Shown piece by piece: positions 35,075 to 49,100 of a DNA stretch of 64,000 nt. The stretch comes from Psittacicella hinzii. GTDB lineage: Bacteria > Pseudomonadota > Gammaproteobacteria > Enterobacterales > Psittacicellaceae. Numbering within the stretch: the first letter of the stretch is position 1; every line of letters starts with the position of its first letter. The stretch lies in the NCBI RefSeq assembly GCF_003585885.1, contig NZ_NRHC01000016.1, positions 1-64,000 on the forward strand. The letters are read 5' to 3'. Position numbers and translations under genes: made by a program. The notes under the pieces were generated by a model. It had not been told where the DNA came from and made no database searches. It saw only the letters and a program-made list of their open reading frames with translations.

Positions 35075-36640
35075 CTATTCATCAATATCTAAATCATCAT
35101 CTGAGAAAGATAATTTATTTTGTGGCTCTGCTTTTTCTTCTGTAGTAGGTGTAACAAATAAGTTACTACTTTCAGGTAAAGCTGGAGAGCGATATTCTTC
35201 TGTTGCTGGAGCACTGCCTTGCTGCGCTGCTTTAATAGCTGCTAAAAATTGTTGCATTGTTGCTTCATCTAAAGAAGAAAGAGAAGCTAATAAATCATTT
35301 GAAGCAGTATTTGCTGCAGGAGCTGCAGGTGTTTTTTCAGCAGCTGGAGCTACTTGAGTTTCACCTAAAACTTTAGCACCATTATTTGGTTTAATTGCTA
35401 AACCATCATTGCTCTCAACTGAAGATTTAGTGCTTGGTTTGCTACTTGCAACAGGAGTAGGTGTTTGGTAGCTACTTGCTGTTTGCGCAATAGGTTGAGC
35501 GTTTTCTTTATTGCTATGCGAACCCATACCAGTAGCAACAATAGTTATATTTAAACGAGGAGTGTTGTCTTCGTTGTCTGGTAATTTGTTATAAGCGAAG
35601 ATAACTTGAGGTCCATTATTTTGGATTGACTCAATTTTATCATCATCTAAGCTATCAAGATCTTCTAATAGTTCATCAAAGCTTTCTACTTCTTGATCTT
35701 TAACGCGAGAGAAGCGAGATACAAACTGATCCATAATTCTTTGGGTAAAGTGACTTGAACACTCTAAAAGAATTAAGAAAGCAGTAGCTTGTTCAATATT
35801 AGAACTTGTAATTAATGGTGAAGTTGTAACTTCTTTATAGATATAGTCGATTGTACCTTCTGGATCTTCAGTAATTGAATCTAATCCTTCACCTTCTAAA
35901 CTACGATATAAGATTTGTGATTTACCACCATTATTTAGGATAGTTTTTAAATCTTCGAAGTCTGTATTAATCGTTGTTGGGTTACGGATAATTTTAATTA
36001 CGCCAGAAATTGCGTTTGAAAGAATTTTATTAGCTTCATCAAGCCCACGAGTATATTCATAATCAGGATAGAAATCAACAATTTTTTGATTGTCAATCAT
36101 GATTAATGAATCAGAATGGCGATAAAGATTTTTAATACCGTAATATGCTTCACGCATACGGTTTTCATATTTAAATGGTAAAGTTACTAGTGATACTACA
36201 ATTGCTCCTGCATTTTTTGCAGCTTCAGCCACAATTGAAGAACCTAAAGTTCCCGTACCACCGCCCATACCGGCTGTAATAAATACTAAGTCAGTACCAC
36301 TTACAATTTCTGTGATTTCTTGGATAGCTTCTACAGTGGCATTACGTCCAACGTTAATATTAGCCCCTGCACCTTTACCTTTTAGTAAATTTTTACCAAG
36401 TACTAATTTATTTTCACACTGTAAGTTATTTAAACAATTCTCATCAGTGTTAAAAATATAGTGAGAAACACTTTTACCTACATTATCCATGTAGCCCGGT
36501 TGTTTATAAAGATAGTCAACGGCATTGTTACCAGCTCCACCAACTCCGATAACAATAATTTTTTCTAATTGATCTGTTTCTTTCATTTCTGATTTACCGC
36601 CGTTCGCATTCAAAACAGGAAGAACAATGTCATTTTCCAT
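35075..36640 (-). CDS. ftsZ: cell division protein FtsZ, divergent
   Basis: Tubulin-like GTPase that forms the division ring. The core is clear: IGVGGAGNNAV (31-41), NTDENCLNNL, GKGAGANINVGRNA (88-101) and the T7 loop NTDFED (225-230). The GTP signature reads GGGTGTL with Leu132, not the usual final Gly. An acidic stretch (about 313-342) interrupts the C-terminal subdomain. A linker of about 110 residues rich in Ala/Pro/Thr/Ser follows, and the end is LSFSDDDLDIDE, with no D-I-P-x-F-L-R-type binding peptide. 521 residues against 383 in E. coli. The ATG at 36586 (MKETDQLEK…) fits the family N-terminus better and has GGCGG upstream, so it may be the true start. Confidence 0.9.
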   Translation of the reverse strand: MENDIVLPVLNANGGKSEMKETDQLEKIIVIGVGGAGNNAVDYLYKQPGYMDNVGKSVSHYIFNTDENCLNNLQCENKLVLGKNLLKGKGAGANINVGRNATVEAIQEITEIVSGTDLVFITAGMGGGTGTLGSSIVAEAAKNAGAIVVSLVTLPFKYENRMREAYYGIKNLYRHSDSLIMIDNQKIVDFYPDYEYTRGLDEANKILSNAISGVIKIIRNPTTINTDFEDLKTILNNGGKSQILYRSLEGEGLDSITEDPEGTIDYIYKEVTTSPLITSSNIEQATAFLILLECSSHFTQRIMDQFVSRFSRVKDQEVESFDELLEDLDSLDDDKIESIQNNGPQVIFAYNKLPDNEDNTPRLNITIVATGMGSHSNKENAQPIAQTASSYQTPTPVASSKPSTKSSVESNDGLAIKPNNGAKVLGETQVAPAAEKTPAAPAANTASNDLLASLSSLDEATMQQFLAAIKAAQQGSAPATEEYRSPALPESSNLFVTPTTEEKAEPQNKLSFSDDDLDIDE

Positions 36641-36784: not shown

Positions 36785-38131
36785 TTACATCTTAAAGAAT
36801 TTTAAAAGAGACTCAAAGAACCCTACTTTTATAGGCTTAGGTCTAGCTAAGTGGAAATTGTAAATTAATCCAAAAGAAGTAGTAAATTGATCTCTAGTCG
36901 CTTGATATAGTTTATAGCATTCTCTACCAGCATTATCAACCATAAAATGGCTAAAACTAAAACAGATCCCAGGTCTAAAGTAAACCTTATTGCTTACTTT
37001 TAACACTTTGTGCTCAATTTTTAATTGCTCTTCACTAGTGTAATAGATTAGAGTTCTAGATTTTAGATTTGCAGATGGAAGAAAGCTATGTGAGTAATAT
37101 TGCATCCCTGTAACTAGGTTAAGCGAAGTTTGTTCAAGTTGTTGACCATTGCTAGTTAATTTTTCTTCTTTTTGTTTATTGAAGTACTCAATTTCATTTT
37201 CTAGTCTTTCTGAGAAGACTAAAGAAGCAACAGCTGAAACATCTTGTAAATCTGCTCCATACCCCATGATATTTAATTGTACTTTATTAAAAAAGTTTGG
37301 GGTAAATCTTAAACCATCACGATCAAGTTCTTTCAATTTGTCATAGCAAAGATGAAAAACTTCTTGTAAAGGTAAAACAATAGACTCTTCAGTATCACTA
37401 ATGGTAAAGTTTACATTAAATAAAGGAATTCTAAAGTTATGTTTAGATCTAGTAACTAAAAAATTAAATCCACTTAAGCCGTTATAAACAGCTTCAAGAG
37501 GTAAAGGTCTTTTTATTTTTGGATTATTATTTATGCTATTAACGATTTCTTTAAAACCTTTTTCTACACTAAGAGACTCAATAAAATAGTCATTTTGATC
37601 TTTTATAAAGTTAATCCAAGTAGAGTTATAGCATAAGTTTATATTTATTAAATAAGGTTTATTTACTTGATTCTCATCAACTAGTAAGGTTGTAGCTGCT
37701 GTGTCAGCTGTACATTTGAAAATAACCTCATCGCCTAAAATAACATCATCCGCAAAAAAGTAATTTTTAAGAATTTCTTTTAAAATGTGAGTTTGAATTG
37801 GAGATTGTTTTCTTAATTCAGAGACAATAATATTGTAAGAGATTCTTTTTACGACTAATTTGTCATCAGCGATATCTAAATTTAAATCTTTAGCTTTTTC
37901 TCGATTCTCGATTTTAAGATGGTTATCAAGAAAATCTTGAATATTCTCTACAACTGAGTGAGTAAATAAATCTTTGTTGGTAATATTACCAAAATTAATT
38001 CCTTGGAGGATTCCTCTTTTTAAAGCTAAGAGATTTACCGTTTCATTTTCAACATATCCAGCAGCTAAATTGATTTCAGAAGAGTCAATATGGATTGATA
38101 AAATCAAGTTCTTTGCTTTATTTTTTGCCAC
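36785..38131 (-). CDS. ftsA: FtsA-like division protein with degenerate nucleotide site
   Basis: Assigned from position between ftsQ and ftsZ, its length (448; E. coli 420), and the order of weakly preserved FtsA/actin-fold blocks. Phosphate-1 is SIHIDSSEINLAAG (about 12-25) where FtsA has G-x-DIGT. Phosphate-2 is LININLCYNST (about 161-171) where DIGGGT is expected. The adenosine motif is NIMGYGADL. The late block VTGMQYYS stands for AVGLLHYG. The C-terminal GFFESLLKFFKM is a good amphipathic membrane-targeting helix. The catalytic acidic residues and glycines are mostly replaced, so ATP binding is doubtful. The role is inferred as membrane tether for FtsZ. Confidence 0.75.
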   Translation of the reverse strand: MAKNKAKNLILSIHIDSSEINLAAGYVENETVNLLALKRGILQGINFGNITNKDLFTHSVVENIQDFLDNHLKIENREKAKDLNLDIADDKLVVKRISYNIIVSELRKQSPIQTHILKEILKNYFFADDVILGDEVIFKCTADTAATTLLVDENQVNKPYLININLCYNSTWINFIKDQNDYFIESLSVEKGFKEIVNSINNNPKIKRPLPLEAVYNGLSGFNFLVTRSKHNFRIPLFNVNFTISDTEESIVLPLQEVFHLCYDKLKELDRDGLRFTPNFFNKVQLNIMGYGADLQDVSAVASLVFSERLENEIEYFNKQKEEKLTSNGQQLEQTSLNLVTGMQYYSHSFLPSANLKSRTLIYYTSEEQLKIEHKVLKVSNKVYFRPGICFSFSHFMVDNAGRECYKLYQATRDQFTTSFGLIYNFHLARPKPIKVGFFESLLKFFKM

Positions 38132-41747: not shown

Positions 41748-42995
41748 TTAAAAATAAGTTTTTATGAATGCAGTAATTTTATCTGTAGCTTGTGGAGTTG
41801 CTAAAGTAGTTTGTTTTTTAGCCATTAGGTAAAGCTTGTTGTAATTTAAGGTTAACAGATTTTCTACAAGTGTTTGCGAGTTAAAATCTTTATTTAAAAT
41901 TACACGAGCAGCCTGTTGGTCGACTAGGTATTTAGCATTAAGAAGTTGTTGTTGGTCTTTATGATGAGCTAAAGGGACAAAGATAACTGGACGATTACAG
42001 CTAGCAATCTCAAATACAGTCATAGAACCAGAACGACAAATGATTAGATCACTAGCTAAGTATCTTTCTATCATATTGTCAATAAATTCAATTGGTGTAA
42101 AACTACTTGCAACTTTGTCTAGTTCTAAGTTTTTTGCTAATTGTTCTACATTAGCTAAGTTATTTTTACCAACCTGCTGTACAAGATCTACATAAATATC
42201 TTTTTCAGCTAGGAGTTTAACAGCTGGAGCAAGGTTTTCATTAAGGATACGAGCACCTATTGATCCACCAACTGCAAAGATATTAAGTTTTTGTTTTTGA
42301 AAGCTTAAATGATCAAAGTCTTTTTGTTCATTGCTATCTAAAAGACTATATAACTTAGAAAAGTTTTCTTCGTTATATTCTAGATCTTGGGTAAATTCTT
42401 TATCTAAATTAGCTAAATAGTTTTTAAGTTCAATGAACTCATTTTTAGCTTTTTCTAAAAGAGGGCGAAGGTTATCTTCGCTATTTACCTTTTGGAAGTC
42501 TTCTCTTAGAGGTTGACCAACAATATATTCTGGTTTTTTAGCTTGTGGTAATGGGTAGGCAAATAGTGTTAAATTTGCAAATTTCATTAAAATTTTATTA
42601 GTTAGACCTATTACTCCATTGTTCTCTAAAACAATTAGAGGAATGCCTAATAATTTTGCTGCAATCCCAACTGGACCGCACACATATCCTCCAAAACTTA
42701 CCACTACGTTTGGACGGATCTCTTTAAGGATTTTTATAGAATCTTTTACTGCTTTGAGTGAAGTAAATGGTGCTTTTAACCAAGCTTTTAATCCACGCGA
42801 TACTATACCTTCAATTTTGATAGTATGAAGAGGGTAGCCATATTTTGGCACTATATCATTTTCCATGCGATCGGAAGTTCCAACCCATGAAATGTCAACG
42901 TTTTCAGCAGATAATTTTTGGGCAACAGCAAGAGCTGGGAAGATATGCCCTCCTGTACCCCCAGCAACTATAAGAACTTTTTTCTTTGTTGTCAT
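41748..42995 (-). CDS. murG: lipid II synthase MurG with a linker insertion
   Basis: Adds GlcNAc to lipid I on the inner face of the membrane. The 415 residues (E. coli 355) include [14 protein letters not shown] (12-25), [20 protein letters not shown] (usually HEQN), [11 protein letters not shown] (243-253) and [12 protein letters not shown] at the sugar-nucleotide site. The extra length is an insertion of about 65 charged, helical residues (about 170-235) exactly between the two Rossmann domains, where E. coli has a short linker. It follows a terminator-like hairpin. Confidence 0.93.
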
Positions 42996-43100: not shown

Positions 43101-43136
43101 AAAAGTAAACCATGACTAAAGTCATGGTTTACTTTT
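43101..43136 (-). terminator. terminator overlapping the murD-ftsW stop codon
   Basis: 16-bp perfect stem AAAAGTAAACCATGAC (43101-43116) / GTCATGGTTTACTTTT (43121-43136) with loop TAAA. The fusion gene's TGA (43122-43124) and last codons lie in the right-hand arm. It separates murD-ftsW from murG. Confidence 0.85.
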
Positions 43137-45890
43137 ACGTGCTTTTTTAAGGTGCTTGAATTTTTTATCTTTAGAGAATTTTTCCGCGAGGAAATTGAAA
43201 AAGCTTAAGACTATATCTTGAGAACGTCCCTCTTTAAAGGTATGTCCATTCGCGATAAGTCGGTTTTCATAGTCAACACGCATGGTTATACCTAAAGCGG
43301 TAAAAGTCACTAGGTATGACGATCCACCGTAAGATATTAATGGGTGGGTACTACCATCTGTTGGTAGAAAAGCTACGGTCATGCCTAAGTTATATAACGA
43401 TTGATATGCTAACCACAGTACAAAGGTAAAAACTAAAATAGCTTGGAAAGGTCTTTTATAGATAAAGAATGTTTGATGAGAAATTTTGAACATTCTTAAG
43501 AAAAGTAAGATTTCAAGCGTAACTAAAATAATTATACCTATGTAACCAAATTCTTCTCCAAAGATTGCTAATATGTAGTCCGTATTTGCTTCTGTTAGAT
43601 ACCCAGATTTAAAAATAGAATTTCCAAGTCCAACTCCCCAAAATCCTCCATGAGAGAATGCAGAGATAGAGTTAATAACTTGATATGATTTTCCATAAGG
43701 ATCTGAATAAGGATCTAAGAAACCTGTAATACGATTCATTAAGTAGGCTTTATTAGTAACGAAGATTACTAATAAAATTACCATTACTATAATAAATGGA
43801 GCTGCTCGGTAAGTTAGGGTCTTTAAGTTAGGGGTAATGTAAATTATAGTAATTGTACTAATAACACCTAACATTAAAGTCGAACCAAAGTCAGGTTGAA
43901 GTAAAAGCAAAATAGACATTATTGCTAAAAAGCAAGTAAAGCCTAGCATATCTATGAGCTTAAAATTCCTATCTTGCGAAATTGCAACTAAATAGTGAGA
44001 TAAGTAGATAAATGTACAAAGTTTTGCTAATTCCACAGGCTGGAACGTAAAACCCATGATACTTATCCATCGTTGAGCACCATTAAGGGAATGCCCAAAA
44101 GTGTGTACAAAGAGGAGTGCTCCAATTGTCCCTATAGACATAAGCGGTAGTAAAGTTCGCCATAATGACGAGTTTATACACAAGGAGGTCAAGAAGGCAC
44201 CAACCCCAATAACCATTAGTAAGGCTTGCTTAGGATTAAATATAGCACCAGTTTGCTTTACTGTCATATAAGTAGAAGCTGAGAATACCGTAATAATACC
44301 TAAGCCAAAGATAGAGAATATTAAAGCTAAAAGATAGCCATCATAAAGCTTAATATCATATGGCTCTTTATGATTTTTTTCACCTAGATAGATTAATTTA
44401 TGAATAAATGATTGGGCAGTATTTAGAGTTTTAACTCCAATACGCTTAAATCTACTAGGTTTTTGATACTTTTTTGCAATTTCAGTAAAAACCTGCCCTC
44501 TGTGTTCGTAGTTTTTAAATTGATCTAGACTAGCACAACCTGGACTTAAAAGTACAACATCGTTACTTTTAAGTTGAGGAGCAATATGGTTCATTACTTG
44601 CTCTAAAGTACCCTCTTTAAAAACTTGTGCGTTAGAAGCGCATTTTGCAACTTCTTCAGCATCACGTCCATAGCAAAGTACTTCAATATTTTTAATTTTA
44701 GCTACAGCTGGAGCCAGCTCACTAAAATCTTGTTTTTTCCCTTCTCCACCCATGAGAAGATAAAGCTTACCATTTTCATGCAGATCAATAGATCTTAGTG
44801 CAGACTCAACTGAACCTATGTTAGTTGCTTTACTGTCATTAATAAAGCGTACTCCATTGTTAGCTGTGTGCACAAGTTCAAATCTATGTGGTAATCCTTT
44901 AAAACTTTTTGCAGCTTCAAAGATTAATTTATCTTGTTGCTCTGAATGACCTTGTAAGGTTAAACGTACTAAAGCTATAGCAGCTAGGATATTCTCATAA
45001 TTATGTAATCCCTGTAATTGGAAATCTTTAACAGGAATTGAAACATATGATATCGAACTAGCATTACCGTAAAGAGCAGGAATGTTTAATGTTTTCTTTT
45101 TAGGATCATAAAAATATGAAGCTGGGTTATTTACTGGATCAGAAGTAAATGCGGTCATGTGTTTTTTAGCATTTTCATTTCCAGGCCATGTATTCTGGTC
45201 TATTTTGTTATATAGCAGACTTTGACTTAAGTCGTATATGTGGTGCTTAGCTTCAGAATACTCTTTAAAGCTTTCATATCTATCTAAGTGATCCGGTGTT
45301 ATATTTAAAATAGTACCGACACGAAGCTTTAAGTTTTTCGTGGTTTCTAGTTGGTAGCTCGAAAGTTCTAAAACATAGTAGTTAAATGTTTCACTTAAAG
45401 TAGACATGATAGGAATGCCTACATTACCAGCCATTGCAACATTGTAACCTAAGTGTTTTAAAATATGAGTAGTAAGCTCTGTAACGGTAGTTTTACCGTT
45501 AGATCCTGTAATCCCAATAACAGGGGCATTACGAAAGATTGGATCTTTTGACTCATTTTTTACACGTGCAAATAGCTCAATATCACCAATTACTTTAACT
45601 CCTTTTTCTAAGGCTAGAGTAAATGCTTGATGATTTTTTGGAATACCTGGAGAAACAATTAAAAAGTTCTGCTGCGCTAGTATTTCAGGAGTGTTTAATG
45701 GATATAAACTAACACTACTGTTAATTGATTGTAAAATAGATATTAATTCAAAATCAGGTTTGTCATCAAATAATGTAATTTGATATTGATTGTGATCTTG
45801 ATTAGTAAGTAGAAACTTAGCTGTTTCAAAACCTGATTTTTTTACCCCAACAATACCTATATTAATTTTACGTGATATTTGTAAGGACAT
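43122..45890 (-). CDS. murD-ftsW: MurD-FtsW fusion: UDP-MurNAc-Ala-Glu ligase joined to septal SEDS glycosyltransferase
   Basis: One uninterrupted 922-residue frame. Residues 1-476 are a full MurD: GITGSNGKTT (126-135), ELSSYQLETT, PDHLDRY, RFINDSKATN (348-357), LLMGGEGKKQDF, LLSPGCASLDQF. Residues 477-516 form a basic linker. Residues 517-880 are FtsW: GLGIITVFSAS, GAQRWI…QPVELAKL (605-624), LLLLQPDFGS (661-670), TEANTDYILAIFGEEFG (766-782, with the conserved acidic residues) and PLISYGGSS (850-858). The order equals separate murD and ftsW in dcw. Both FtsW's N-terminus and MurD are cytoplasmic, so topology allows the fusion. No second start or stop separates them. Confidence 0.95.
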   Translation of the reverse strand: MSLQISRKINIGIVGVKKSGFETAKFLLTNQDHNQYQITLFDDKPDFELISILQSINSSVSLYPLNTPEILAQQNFLIVSPGIPKNHQAFTLALEKGVKVIGDIELFARVKNESKDPIFRNAPVIGITGSNGKTTVTELTTHILKHLGYNVAMAGNVGIPIMSTLSETFNYYVLELSSYQLETTKNLKLRVGTILNITPDHLDRYESFKEYSEAKHHIYDLSQSLLYNKIDQNTWPGNENAKKHMTAFTSDPVNNPASYFYDPKKKTLNIPALYGNASSISYVSIPVKDFQLQGLHNYENILAAIALVRLTLQGHSEQQDKLIFEAAKSFKGLPHRFELVHTANNGVRFINDSKATNIGSVESALRSIDLHENGKLYLLMGGEGKKQDFSELAPAVAKIKNIEVLCYGRDAEEVAKCASNAQVFKEGTLEQVMNHIAPQLKSNDVVLLSPGCASLDQFKNYEHRGQVFTEIAKKYQKPSRFKRIGVKTLNTAQSFIHKLIYLGEKNHKEPYDIKLYDGYLLALIFSIFGLGIITVFSASTYMTVKQTGAIFNPKQALLMVIGVGAFLTSLCINSSLWRTLLPLMSIGTIGALLFVHTFGHSLNGAQRWISIMGFTFQPVELAKLCTFIYLSHYLVAISQDRNFKLIDMLGFTCFLAIMSILLLLQPDFGSTLMLGVISTITIIYITPNLKTLTYRAAPFIIVMVILLVIFVTNKAYLMNRITGFLDPYSDPYGKSYQVINSISAFSHGGFWGVGLGNSIFKSGYLTEANTDYILAIFGEEFGYIGIIILVTLEILLFLRMFKISHQTFFIYKRPFQAILVFTFVLWLAYQSLYNLGMTVAFLPTDGSTHPLISYGGSSYLVTFTALGITMRVDYENRLIANGHTFKEGRSQDIVLSFFNFLAEKFSKDKKFKHLKKARKSKP

Positions 45891-45972: not shown

Positions 45973-47037
45973 TTAAATGATCTTAAAACCAGAGAAGTAG
46001 ATAACTAAACTAGTTAGCAGTAGTAAGAATGCGGCTACCCAGAAACGAGCAATTACTTTTGTTTCAGCATAACCTTTTTTCTCATAATGGTGGTGTAAAG
46101 GTGCCATTAAGAAGACACGTCTACCCTCGCCATATTTGCGTTTAGTATATTTAAACCATAGCATTTGAATTGCTGAAGATAAACATTCAACCACAAAAAC
46201 TCCTCCCATAATTACGAGAAGAATCTCTTGGCGTACTAAAACTGCTAAGAAACCTAATAAGCCACCTAAAGCTAAAGAACCAACATCACCCATAAAAATT
46301 TGAGCTGGGTAACAGTTGAATACGAAAAAGCCTATACAAGCACCAGCAAGAGCTGAGCATAGAACAGTTAAGCTCAACGTATCAAAGCTTTCTTGTAGCA
46401 TAAAAGAGTCGATAAGTCCTAGTTGTAAAGAGATTAGCCCAAAACCTACAGCACAAAATAGTGTAGGGATAATAGCTAGCCCATCTAAACCATCAGTTAA
46501 ATTAACTGCGTTTGAAGCTCCTACTACAGTGAAGTAAGCTAGTGGAATAAATAAGAAGCCAATATACGGTTGCCAACTAAATAGTGGAATATTTAGAATG
46601 TAGTTTATTTCTCTATCGGTACCAAAGTACAGAATAAAAATAGGAATTAAGGATACTAAAGATAAGGCTAAGTATTTTTGTTTTGCACTAAGACCATCTG
46701 AGTTTTTACGTTTGATTTTTAAGTAATCATCAACAAAACCTACAGCTCCAAACCCAATAAACACAAATAGTGATAACCATAAATTTAGAGAGTTTAAAGG
46801 GGCAAAAAGTAGTACCGAAACAACTACCGCTAAGATGATCATAACTCCACCCATAGTTGGAGTTCCTTGTTTTTTCAAGTGAGTTTCAGGACCATCTAAA
46901 CGAATACTTTGACCATATTTAAGCTTGTGTAAAGCTTTAATTAAATAAGGACCTGCAATTAAGCAGATTAGAAAAGAAACGATAAAAGCTCCAAGCATGC
47001 ATAGGAGGAGCATATTAATCAAATTAATGTCAAACAT
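45973..47037 (-). CDS. mraY: phospho-N-acetylmuramoyl-pentapeptide transferase
   Basis: Makes lipid I at the inner membrane. The 354 residues have ten membrane segments. Motifs are KKQGTPTMGG (about 51-60), GFVDDYLK with the catalytic Asp pair, NLTDGLDGLA, FNCYPAQIFMGDVGSLALGG and APLHHHYEKKG at the C-terminus. Family length and order are normal (E. coli 360). Confidence 0.96.
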   Translation of the reverse strand: MFDINLINMLLLCMLGAFIVSFLICLIAGPYLIKALHKLKYGQSIRLDGPETHLKKQGTPTMGGVMIILAVVVSVLLFAPLNSLNLWLSLFVFIGFGAVGFVDDYLKIKRKNSDGLSAKQKYLALSLVSLIPIFILYFGTDREINYILNIPLFSWQPYIGFLFIPLAYFTVVGASNAVNLTDGLDGLAIIPTLFCAVGFGLISLQLGLIDSFMLQESFDTLSLTVLCSALAGACIGFFVFNCYPAQIFMGDVGSLALGGLLGFLAVLVRQEILLVIMGGVFVVECLSSAIQMLWFKYTKRKYGEGRRVFLMAPLHHHYEKKGYAETKVIARFWVAAFLLLLTSLVIYFSGFKII

Positions 47038-47048
47038 AATTTTTTATA

Positions 47049-49100
47049 TTACAGAGTTCTCTGGTAATTAGTTTTAACGTAAGTAATTAACTCTTGGTTA
47101 ATGTATTGTTCATAGTTGCTAAAATTCTCTTTTATAAGCGAAAGAAGTTCTAGCATACACAAATTCATTTTTGAAGAGTTACTGCCTTTAAAGGTGATAG
47201 CAAAAGTTCTATTATTATGTTGCTGTAAGATTTCAAACACTTGGGTAGCAAGTTTGTAATAAGAAGAATCTTCTTTACTAGCAACTATATTAGGTCTTTC
47301 TAGCACATAGACAAATCTGTTTGATTTATTGAAAGGCAAGACGTATAGCTTTTCATCAGCTAAAGCTTTAGGTTTTTCTAAACTAAAAGTTAAATTAGAT
47401 ATTAAATAAAAGTTATTATTTTGCCCAAAAATATATTTGTCATATATTTCAGTAAAAAAGTCTACTTTAGTTTGATAATCTAATTCAGCTAGGTTTCCTA
47501 AAGCATAAATTTTGATATCAGCTTTTTCGTTAGTCAGATTTTCTAATGAAGCTAAAACTGATCCAGGATTAGCATTATAGCTATCGTCAATATAAGTAAT
47601 TTTTTCGGTAACTATAGTTTTATCTCTGCGAGAAGGAATTGGTACATCTTTTAAAGCATAAAGAATGTGATCTAAAGGAATCCCCCCAGCTAGACATGTA
47701 ATCAATGCAGCAGTTGCATTGTATACTCCAATAGTACCTTTTAAATTAGTGTGAATTTTAACTACTTGAGGATCAACAAAAATCTCTTTGGTTAAATAAG
47801 CATTTCCTTTAGGGAAATGTACTCTTTTACACTCAAAACCATTGATGTGTAAATCAAAAGAGGTTTGTCCTTCAAAAGCGCTTATTGATTTTTTATCAAT
47901 ATAAAAATCAGCTAGGTTATTTTCAGCACTAAAAGTTAGTAAAGTTTGTTCTTTATGGCGAGCAAAAAGTAAATCATTAGTATAAGAATCTAAGTTTATT
48001 ACTTTTACTCCTTGAGAGTTTAGATTAGCAAAAACTTCTGCTTTAGCTAAAGAAACTCCCCTTAAGCCACCAAACCCCTCTGTATGGGCTGGTTGAATAT
48101 TATTAATAACCGCTATATCTGGACGAGAAATTAGACTTGTATGGTAAATTTCTCCTAAGTGGTTAGCACCATGCTCAACTACAGCTACTTCAGGTGAAAT
48201 AGCATACTTAACTTTGGCATTAGCTAAATCTAATAATGTAATAGGAACTCCTAATTCATTATTAAAATTTCCTGCTGTAGAAATAACACGGTTTTCATAG
48301 TATTTACTAAAGATATGAGCAATAGCTTCCTTTATTGAAGTTTTCCCAGATGATCCTGTGATAGCAACCGTAAGTGGGTTATGGTGTATGCGTAAATATC
48401 CTGCAACAAATTCTAAAGCTTGATAGATATCGGTTACTGGAATAACTCTACCTATAGATTGGTTAAAACAAAAATCAGCTAGCTCTGTAGTAAGGTTACC
48501 AATAAAAACTACACAATTTTTACGTTTTAATGCGATAGAAGCTAATTCTTCTTTAGTTAAACGTGTGCTATCAAGAACAAAGAAACCTGCAATTTGTTCA
48601 GTAGAAATTTCGCTTAATCTTCTTGTGTCTGTTGTCAAGAAAATATCTTGGGAAGCAAAAGGCAACCTAGCGTAGGCAAAAAGGTCACATAATACTTGTG
48701 GGGCAGGATGATATTGCTCATCACCAGCGTAATCTCCTGTTGCAAGATCAAGCGGGTTGGTTTTTGTCTCAAGTAAAGTTAGCCCTAATTTTTTAGGGCT
48801 AGCTTTTGCAACTTTAAGCTCCTTTTCTTTATCGCTATCTAAACCATCTATTTTAGGTTCTTTAATAACGATAAGATTAGCGATTTCTTGATTTAAAGCT
48901 AATTCATGAGATTGTTTTTGTTTGATACGTTCTTCTTCAAGAAGAAAATCTTTAAGATTAGCGTTAATCTTATCTTGGATATCTTTGATTGCTTTAAAGG
49001 TTCTTAAGCTAGTTTCTTGATAAGGGATGAAACGGTTATCTAATAGATCAGCACGTGCTAAACCTTCAACAATATCTTTCAAAGAAATAGCGTTAGGCAT
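47049..49100 (-). CDS. murF: UDP-MurNAc-tripeptide D-alanyl-D-alanine ligase with enlarged N-terminal domain
   Basis: Adds D-Ala-D-Ala to the UDP-muramyl tripeptide. The 683 residues are far longer than E. coli MurF (452). The P-loop AITGSSGKTSIKEA starts at 246 instead of about 107. The added sequence (about 35-125) is charged and lysine/glutamate-rich, interrupting the first domain before the family block DIFLTTDTR. Ligase motifs continue with ISPEVAVVEHGANHLGEI, IDDSYNANPGS and LGNLAELD. The C-terminal domain is also extended (FYLISNLTFSLEKPKALA region). It starts 14 bases after the murE stop. Confidence 0.92.
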   Translation of the reverse strand: MPNAISLKDIVEGLARADLLDNRFIPYQETSLRTFKAIKDIQDKINANLKDFLLEEERIKQKQSHELALNQEIANLIVIKEPKIDGLDSDKEKELKVAKASPKKLGLTLLETKTNPLDLATGDYAGDEQYHPAPQVLCDLFAYARLPFASQDIFLTTDTRRLSEISTEQIAGFFVLDSTRLTKEELASIALKRKNCVVFIGNLTTELADFCFNQSIGRVIPVTDIYQALEFVAGYLRIHHNPLTVAITGSSGKTSIKEAIAHIFSKYYENRVISTAGNFNNELGVPITLLDLANAKVKYAISPEVAVVEHGANHLGEIYHTSLISRPDIAVINNIQPAHTEGFGGLRGVSLAKAEVFANLNSQGVKVINLDSYTNDLLFARHKEQTLLTFSAENNLADFYIDKKSISAFEGQTSFDLHINGFECKRVHFPKGNAYLTKEIFVDPQVVKIHTNLKGTIGVYNATAALITCLAGGIPLDHILYALKDVPIPSRRDKTIVTEKITYIDDSYNANPGSVLASLENLTNEKADIKIYALGNLAELDYQTKVDFFTEIYDKYIFGQNNNFYLISNLTFSLEKPKALADEKLYVLPFNKSNRFVYVLERPNIVASKEDSSYYKLATQVFEILQQHNNRTFAITFKGSNSSKMNLCMLELLSLIKENFSNYEQYINQELITYVKTNYQRTL

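Follow-up and report, generated by a model that had tools for sequence, protein, structure and literature searches.

Results

MurD and FtsW share one open reading frame

The window analysed here is a stretch of 64,000 nucleotides from Psittacicella hinzii, a member of a genus associated with birds, and on its minus strand lies one uninterrupted frame of 922 codons, opening with ATG, that encodes a MurD ligase followed by an FtsW-type SEDS protein (calculated mass 103.4 kDa). The gene, its parts and the genes on either side are as follows:

43122-45890, minus strand: murD-ftsW fusion gene, 922 amino acids, stop included; same frame in four Psittacicella genomes
44472-45863, minus strand: MurD part, residues 10-473; TIGR01087 at 373 bits, over cut-off; catalytic residues conserved
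44352-44471, minus strand: linker, residues 474-513; basic, without an in-frame start codon
43251-44351, minus strand: FtsW (SEDS) part, residues 514-880; PF01098 at 275 bits; D771 in the TEANTD loop
43125-43250, minus strand: C-terminal tail of cytoplasmic type, residues 881-922; basic, poorly conserved
45973-47037, minus strand: mraY, upstream (murD side); read from translation; same position in other Psittacicella
41748-42995, minus strand: murG, downstream (ftsW side); TIGR01133 over cut-off

Re-reading the frame bore out the coordinates, strand and length given in a first-pass annotation of this DNA, as well as its order of MurD, linker and SEDS parts; its linker, however, is better drawn at residues ~474-513 than at ~477-516. 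An AlphaFold2 model of the fusion, made with three Psittacicella sequences, had a pLDDT of 39 and a pTM of 0.26.

MurD, the UDP-N-acetylmuramoyl-L-alanine--D-glutamate ligase, adds D-Glu to UDP-MurNAc-L-Ala. The N-terminal half of the fusion matches the murD model TIGR01087 across profile positions 1-440 of 441 (residues 10-473), scoring 373.3 bits against a cut-off of 211.95, and its P-loop, GSNGKT, is present with K133, as placed by aligning it with structures of the E. coli enzyme. Of the catalytic and ligand residues of E. coli MurD, K115, N138, E157, H183 and K198 align with K133, N156, E175, H201 and K215 of the fusion, and N268, H301, R302, D317 and K348 with N297, H335, R336, D352 and K385. 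Exactly one protein per genome exceeds the MurD cut-off in all four Psittacicella genomes, namely the fusion.

The C-terminal half matches PF01098 over profile positions 3-355 of 356 (residues 520-877; 275.5 bits, cut-off 26), and the aspartate of its SEDS EAxTD loop, D771 in TEANTD, aligns with that in LPEAHTD of P. aeruginosa FtsW (8bh1). Its best NCBIfam SEDS model is ftsW, at 287.2 bits versus 224.2 for rodA, but this lies below the TIGR02614 ftsW equivalog cut-off of 337.5 bits, as does the FtsW half from P. melopsittaci (293.4 bits). Besides the fusion, each of the four genomes encodes exactly one further SEDS protein; that in the window's genome, on contig C86, is RodA (TIGR02210, 380.9 bits, cut-off 336.7). 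Within dcw the FtsW half falls between murD and murG, RodA being encoded elsewhere, and from this gene position and the separate RodA we call it a divergent FtsW.

The frame is conserved across the genus

Four separately assembled Psittacicella genomes carry the fusion frame free of stops, at 73-80% identity; its closest named matches are those of Psittacicella melopsittaci (80%, full length) and P. gerlachiana (78%), the genus being placed by NCBI taxonomy in the Pasteurellales, family Psittacicellaceae. Synonymous sites are near saturation among the four (pS 0.63-0.77), whilst pN/pS ranges from 0.17 to 0.27 in the MurD part and from 0.17 to 0.23 in the FtsW part, reaching 0.37-0.61 in the linker, a pattern from which we conclude that both halves are under purifying selection. 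Identity is likewise higher in the domains (75-83%) than in the linker (51-62%), and linker indels between species are whole codons.

These observations bear directly on whether a sequencing or assembly error has joined two genes. One missing stop would suffice to do so in a single genome, and we found no actual support for it; a frame that stays continuous in four genomes, with near-saturated synonymous sites, codon-multiple indels and purifying selection, is not what such an error leaves behind, and we regard its probability as negligible. The earlier annotation had proposed that the two proteins are truly fused, and had suggested both checking the junction (44340-44470) for error and looking for the same architecture in relatives: the separate assemblies dispose of the former concern, and the architecture is present in all four genomes.

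MurD and FtsW functions are both normally essential and, with no second copies, the fused gene must supply both. The four genomes are drafts of 86-92% completeness; an unassembled further copy of murD or ftsW is nevertheless unlikely, since none occurs in any of them. As judged from sequence, the fusion is real and constitutes the sole MurD and the sole FtsW of each of the four genomes.

The linker and possible routes to separate proteins

The linker spans ~40 residues (474-513), of which nine are K/R and three D/E. No other internal part of the fusion is so poorly conserved, although two linker segments, KKYQKPS and IYLG, are retained in each of the four species.

A free FtsW might be made alongside the fusion by internal initiation. 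In the window's species there is no in-frame ATG, GTG or TTG from residue 433, in the MurD C-terminal domain, to residue 542, past TM1; P. gerlachiana likewise lacks any such codon from the C-terminal domain of MurD up to TM1 of FtsW, and the sole in-frame candidate in P. melopsittaci is a TTG inside TM1. Start codons within the linker occur solely in the fourth species (G003), as an ATG at 487 and a GTG at 491, and speak for internal initiation there. An ATG at ~433 is common to all four species, but translation from it would yield FtsW with part of MurD still attached. With no in-frame starts ahead of TM1, an intact separate FtsW is unavailable by ordinary initiation in three of the four species, the window's included, and we consider it very improbable that internal initiation supplies one.

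Alternatively, the fusion could be translated whole and the protein then cut in the linker, such that free MurD and free FtsW are the working forms. The weak conservation of the linker, its basic composition and its probable exposure would suit this, but no conserved cleavage motif was recognised in it, and the conservation of KKYQKPS and IYLG throughout the genus counts against it; we think cleavage improbable, if somewhat less so than internal initiation.

Distribution and probable origin

Related bacteria typically have murD next to ftsW, the two either overlapping by 1-10 nt or lying 0-57 nt apart, and the earlier statement that such bacteria keep them as separate adjacent genes holds. The nearest family (140 genomes, with the best non-Psittacicella matches) appears to be the Pasteurellaceae. 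In 35 of its 140 genomes, as counted under the search threshold, murD and ftsW share one frame, but never without a stop between them, and mostly with exactly one. Loci L010, L017 and L052 from this family have the same gene order, orientation and domains as Psittacicella, with the genes abutting and ~40% identity, but differ in that a stop codon always separates murD from ftsW.

At L052 the MurD tail extends two residues past its profile match, a gap of 15 bases follows, and FtsW has an N-terminal tail of 22 residues; loss of the stop would here give a joint of ~30 residues, compared with ~40 in the fusion, whose linker is thus about as long as expected from two tails and a short gap being joined. 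As many species of the nearest family stand one in-frame stop away from a fusion, simple stop-codon loss between abutting, co-oriented genes probably produced the Psittacicella gene; one lost stop would suffice to account for it, the joined tails having since drifted. We infer a single origin in the Psittacicella ancestor, before the four species split.

No stop-free MurD-FtsW frame was found outside Psittacicella among ~1,500 distinct genomes, drawn from partly overlapping samples of the order (395), class (369), phylum (399), nearest family (140) and Bacteroidota (346), in a search that used E-value thresholds and in which fused genes joined by a long linker might appear as two separate matches. 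Wherever the two genes shared one frame in these genomes, a stop lay between them. Unusually long FtsW frames in three genomes (G055, G1142 and G842) proved, on reading the DNA, to be ordinary separate genes. Separately, locus L061 (G041) has FtsW in an open frame of 636 amino acids that includes an acidic stretch near its N-terminus; an open frame of 672 amino acids holding MurG overlaps it, the start being putative in both cases.

Neighbouring cell-wall and division genes

Two of the neighbouring cell-wall proteins are unusually built. MurG (41748-42995, minus strand) has 415 amino acids against a model of 353 positions, the extra residues (~142-238) lying between its two GT28 domains, and is also long in other Psittacicella. 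MurF (47049-49100, minus strand; 683 amino acids) carries an N-terminal extension of ~150 residues without a family match, which is much shorter in G003; its identity within the genus is 43-53%, well below that of neighbouring genes.

Further along, the slot of ftsA is occupied by:

36785-38131, minus strand: ftsA-slot protein, 448 amino acids; also at L033:17891-19231 and L063:15172-16518

Neither Pfam nor NCBIfam gives a match for this protein, and in none of the four Psittacicella genomes does an FtsA score over cut-off, compared with 492 bits in a genome of the nearest family. There is a faint, collinear N-terminal similarity to FtsA (E 0.004 in one-against-one blastp; not significant by hhalign), its C-terminal end looks amphipathic, and its AlphaFold2 model has a pLDDT of 35; the similarity and the C-terminal end together suggest that it may be an extremely diverged FtsA. 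FtsZ (35075-36640, minus strand; 521 amino acids) scores 229.6 bits with TIGR00065, against a cut-off of 295.2, and has a long C-terminal region; its GTPase domain is the only part that matches Pfam. The divergence of the ftsA-slot protein and of FtsZ makes the division machinery of Psittacicella unusually divergent, and may merit more attention than the fusion itself.

Discussion

The explanation that we favour, and hold to be highly probable on the evidence of the genomes, is that the gene specifies a genuine bifunctional polypeptide of ~103 kDa, with the organism's only MurD as its N-terminal half and its only FtsW, the SEDS polymerase of division, as its C-terminal half. The N-terminus of FtsW is cytoplasmic, as established for the family, so the topology is allowed, as had been proposed earlier: MurD and the FtsW N-terminus are both cytoplasmic at the joint. 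MurD would hang in the cytoplasm, where its substrates are, from a short basic linker on the N-terminus of FtsW, and both halves would be active whilst joined. If the protein is uncut, all cellular MurD would be tied to the membrane, one copy for each FtsW, and to this extent the fixed ratio and tethering envisaged by the first-pass annotation stand.

Fusion of neighbouring dcw genes is already known as a kind: murE-murF (Bordetella), murG-murC, murC-ddl and ftsW-murG (Kribbella flavida) have all been described (PMC4929429, PMC6420597). The MurE-MurF protein of Bordetella pertussis (PMC6420597) likewise arises from two neighbouring dcw genes and is bifunctional, and the linkers of MurE-MurF fusions are reported to be about 20 residues long (PMC4929429); there, however, two soluble ligases of consecutive steps are joined, whereas the Psittacicella protein combines a soluble ligase with a polytopic membrane polymerase acting several steps downstream. 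In Kribbella flavida, too, FtsW is coupled to an adjacent dcw enzyme (ftsW/murG; PMC4929429, Figure 3 legend), but to that encoded on its other side, and the product of MurG, lipid II, is the direct substrate of FtsW. MurG-MurC and MurC-Ddl (PMC6420597, PMC4929429) are again fused neighbours whose steps are not consecutive, yet, unlike MurD-FtsW, they have no integral membrane partner. What differs here is the combination of a soluble early ligase with a polytopic polymerase. No paper on a MurD-FtsW fusion came up, judged by titles and abstracts of the open-access literature on such a fusion and on Psittacicella, and the text of PMC8871954 makes no mention of one; as far as the open-access literature shows, the pairing is new, and we do not claim priority.

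The fusion had also been proposed to link the supply of UDP-MurNAc-peptide to septal glycan synthesis. The product of MurD passes through MurE, MurF, MraY and MurG before becoming lipid II, the substrate of FtsW, and the same single MurD must also serve RodA-dependent growth; since four enzymes intervene and MurD supplies RodA too, feeding of the septum does not follow from the fusion, and this part of the proposal is unsupported.

A broader adaptive role can nonetheless be envisaged, in which MurD held on FtsW organises a membrane-associated assembly of Mur enzymes at the division site and so improves local precursor synthesis. According to published reports (PMC4929429, PMC6420597), Mur ligases associate with MurG and MreB, and FtsW and RodA have been put forward as components of assemblies of this sort; moreover, the fusion has been retained in four species despite near-saturated synonymous divergence. 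Retention, however, is no proof of selection, because re-splitting a fused gene needs several coordinated changes, and the distance of MurD from FtsW in the pathway, the demands of RodA on the only MurD, the weakly conserved linker and the absence of the fusion from the other lineages sampled all weigh against such a role. Whilst the sequence is compatible with neutral stop-codon loss and adaptive tethering alike, we consider the latter unlikely, and suggest that the bifunctional protein is tolerated, rather than selected for precursor channelling. In its most far-reaching form, the idea would be that the only MurD of the genus is permanently tethered to a divisome polymerase, such that the division machinery, with FtsA and FtsZ also strongly remodelled, spatially organises early cytoplasmic precursor synthesis; we offer this as a doubtful speculation.

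If the protein is made whole, Psittacicella would nevertheless represent a ‘natural experiment’, a lineage whose sole MurD is held at 1:1 on its sole FtsW, in which the long-debated membrane-associated assembly of Mur enzymes becomes testable. It would follow that MurD can work without being freely soluble or more abundant than the division polymerase, and that the N-terminus of FtsW tolerates a cytoplasmic domain of ~50 kDa.
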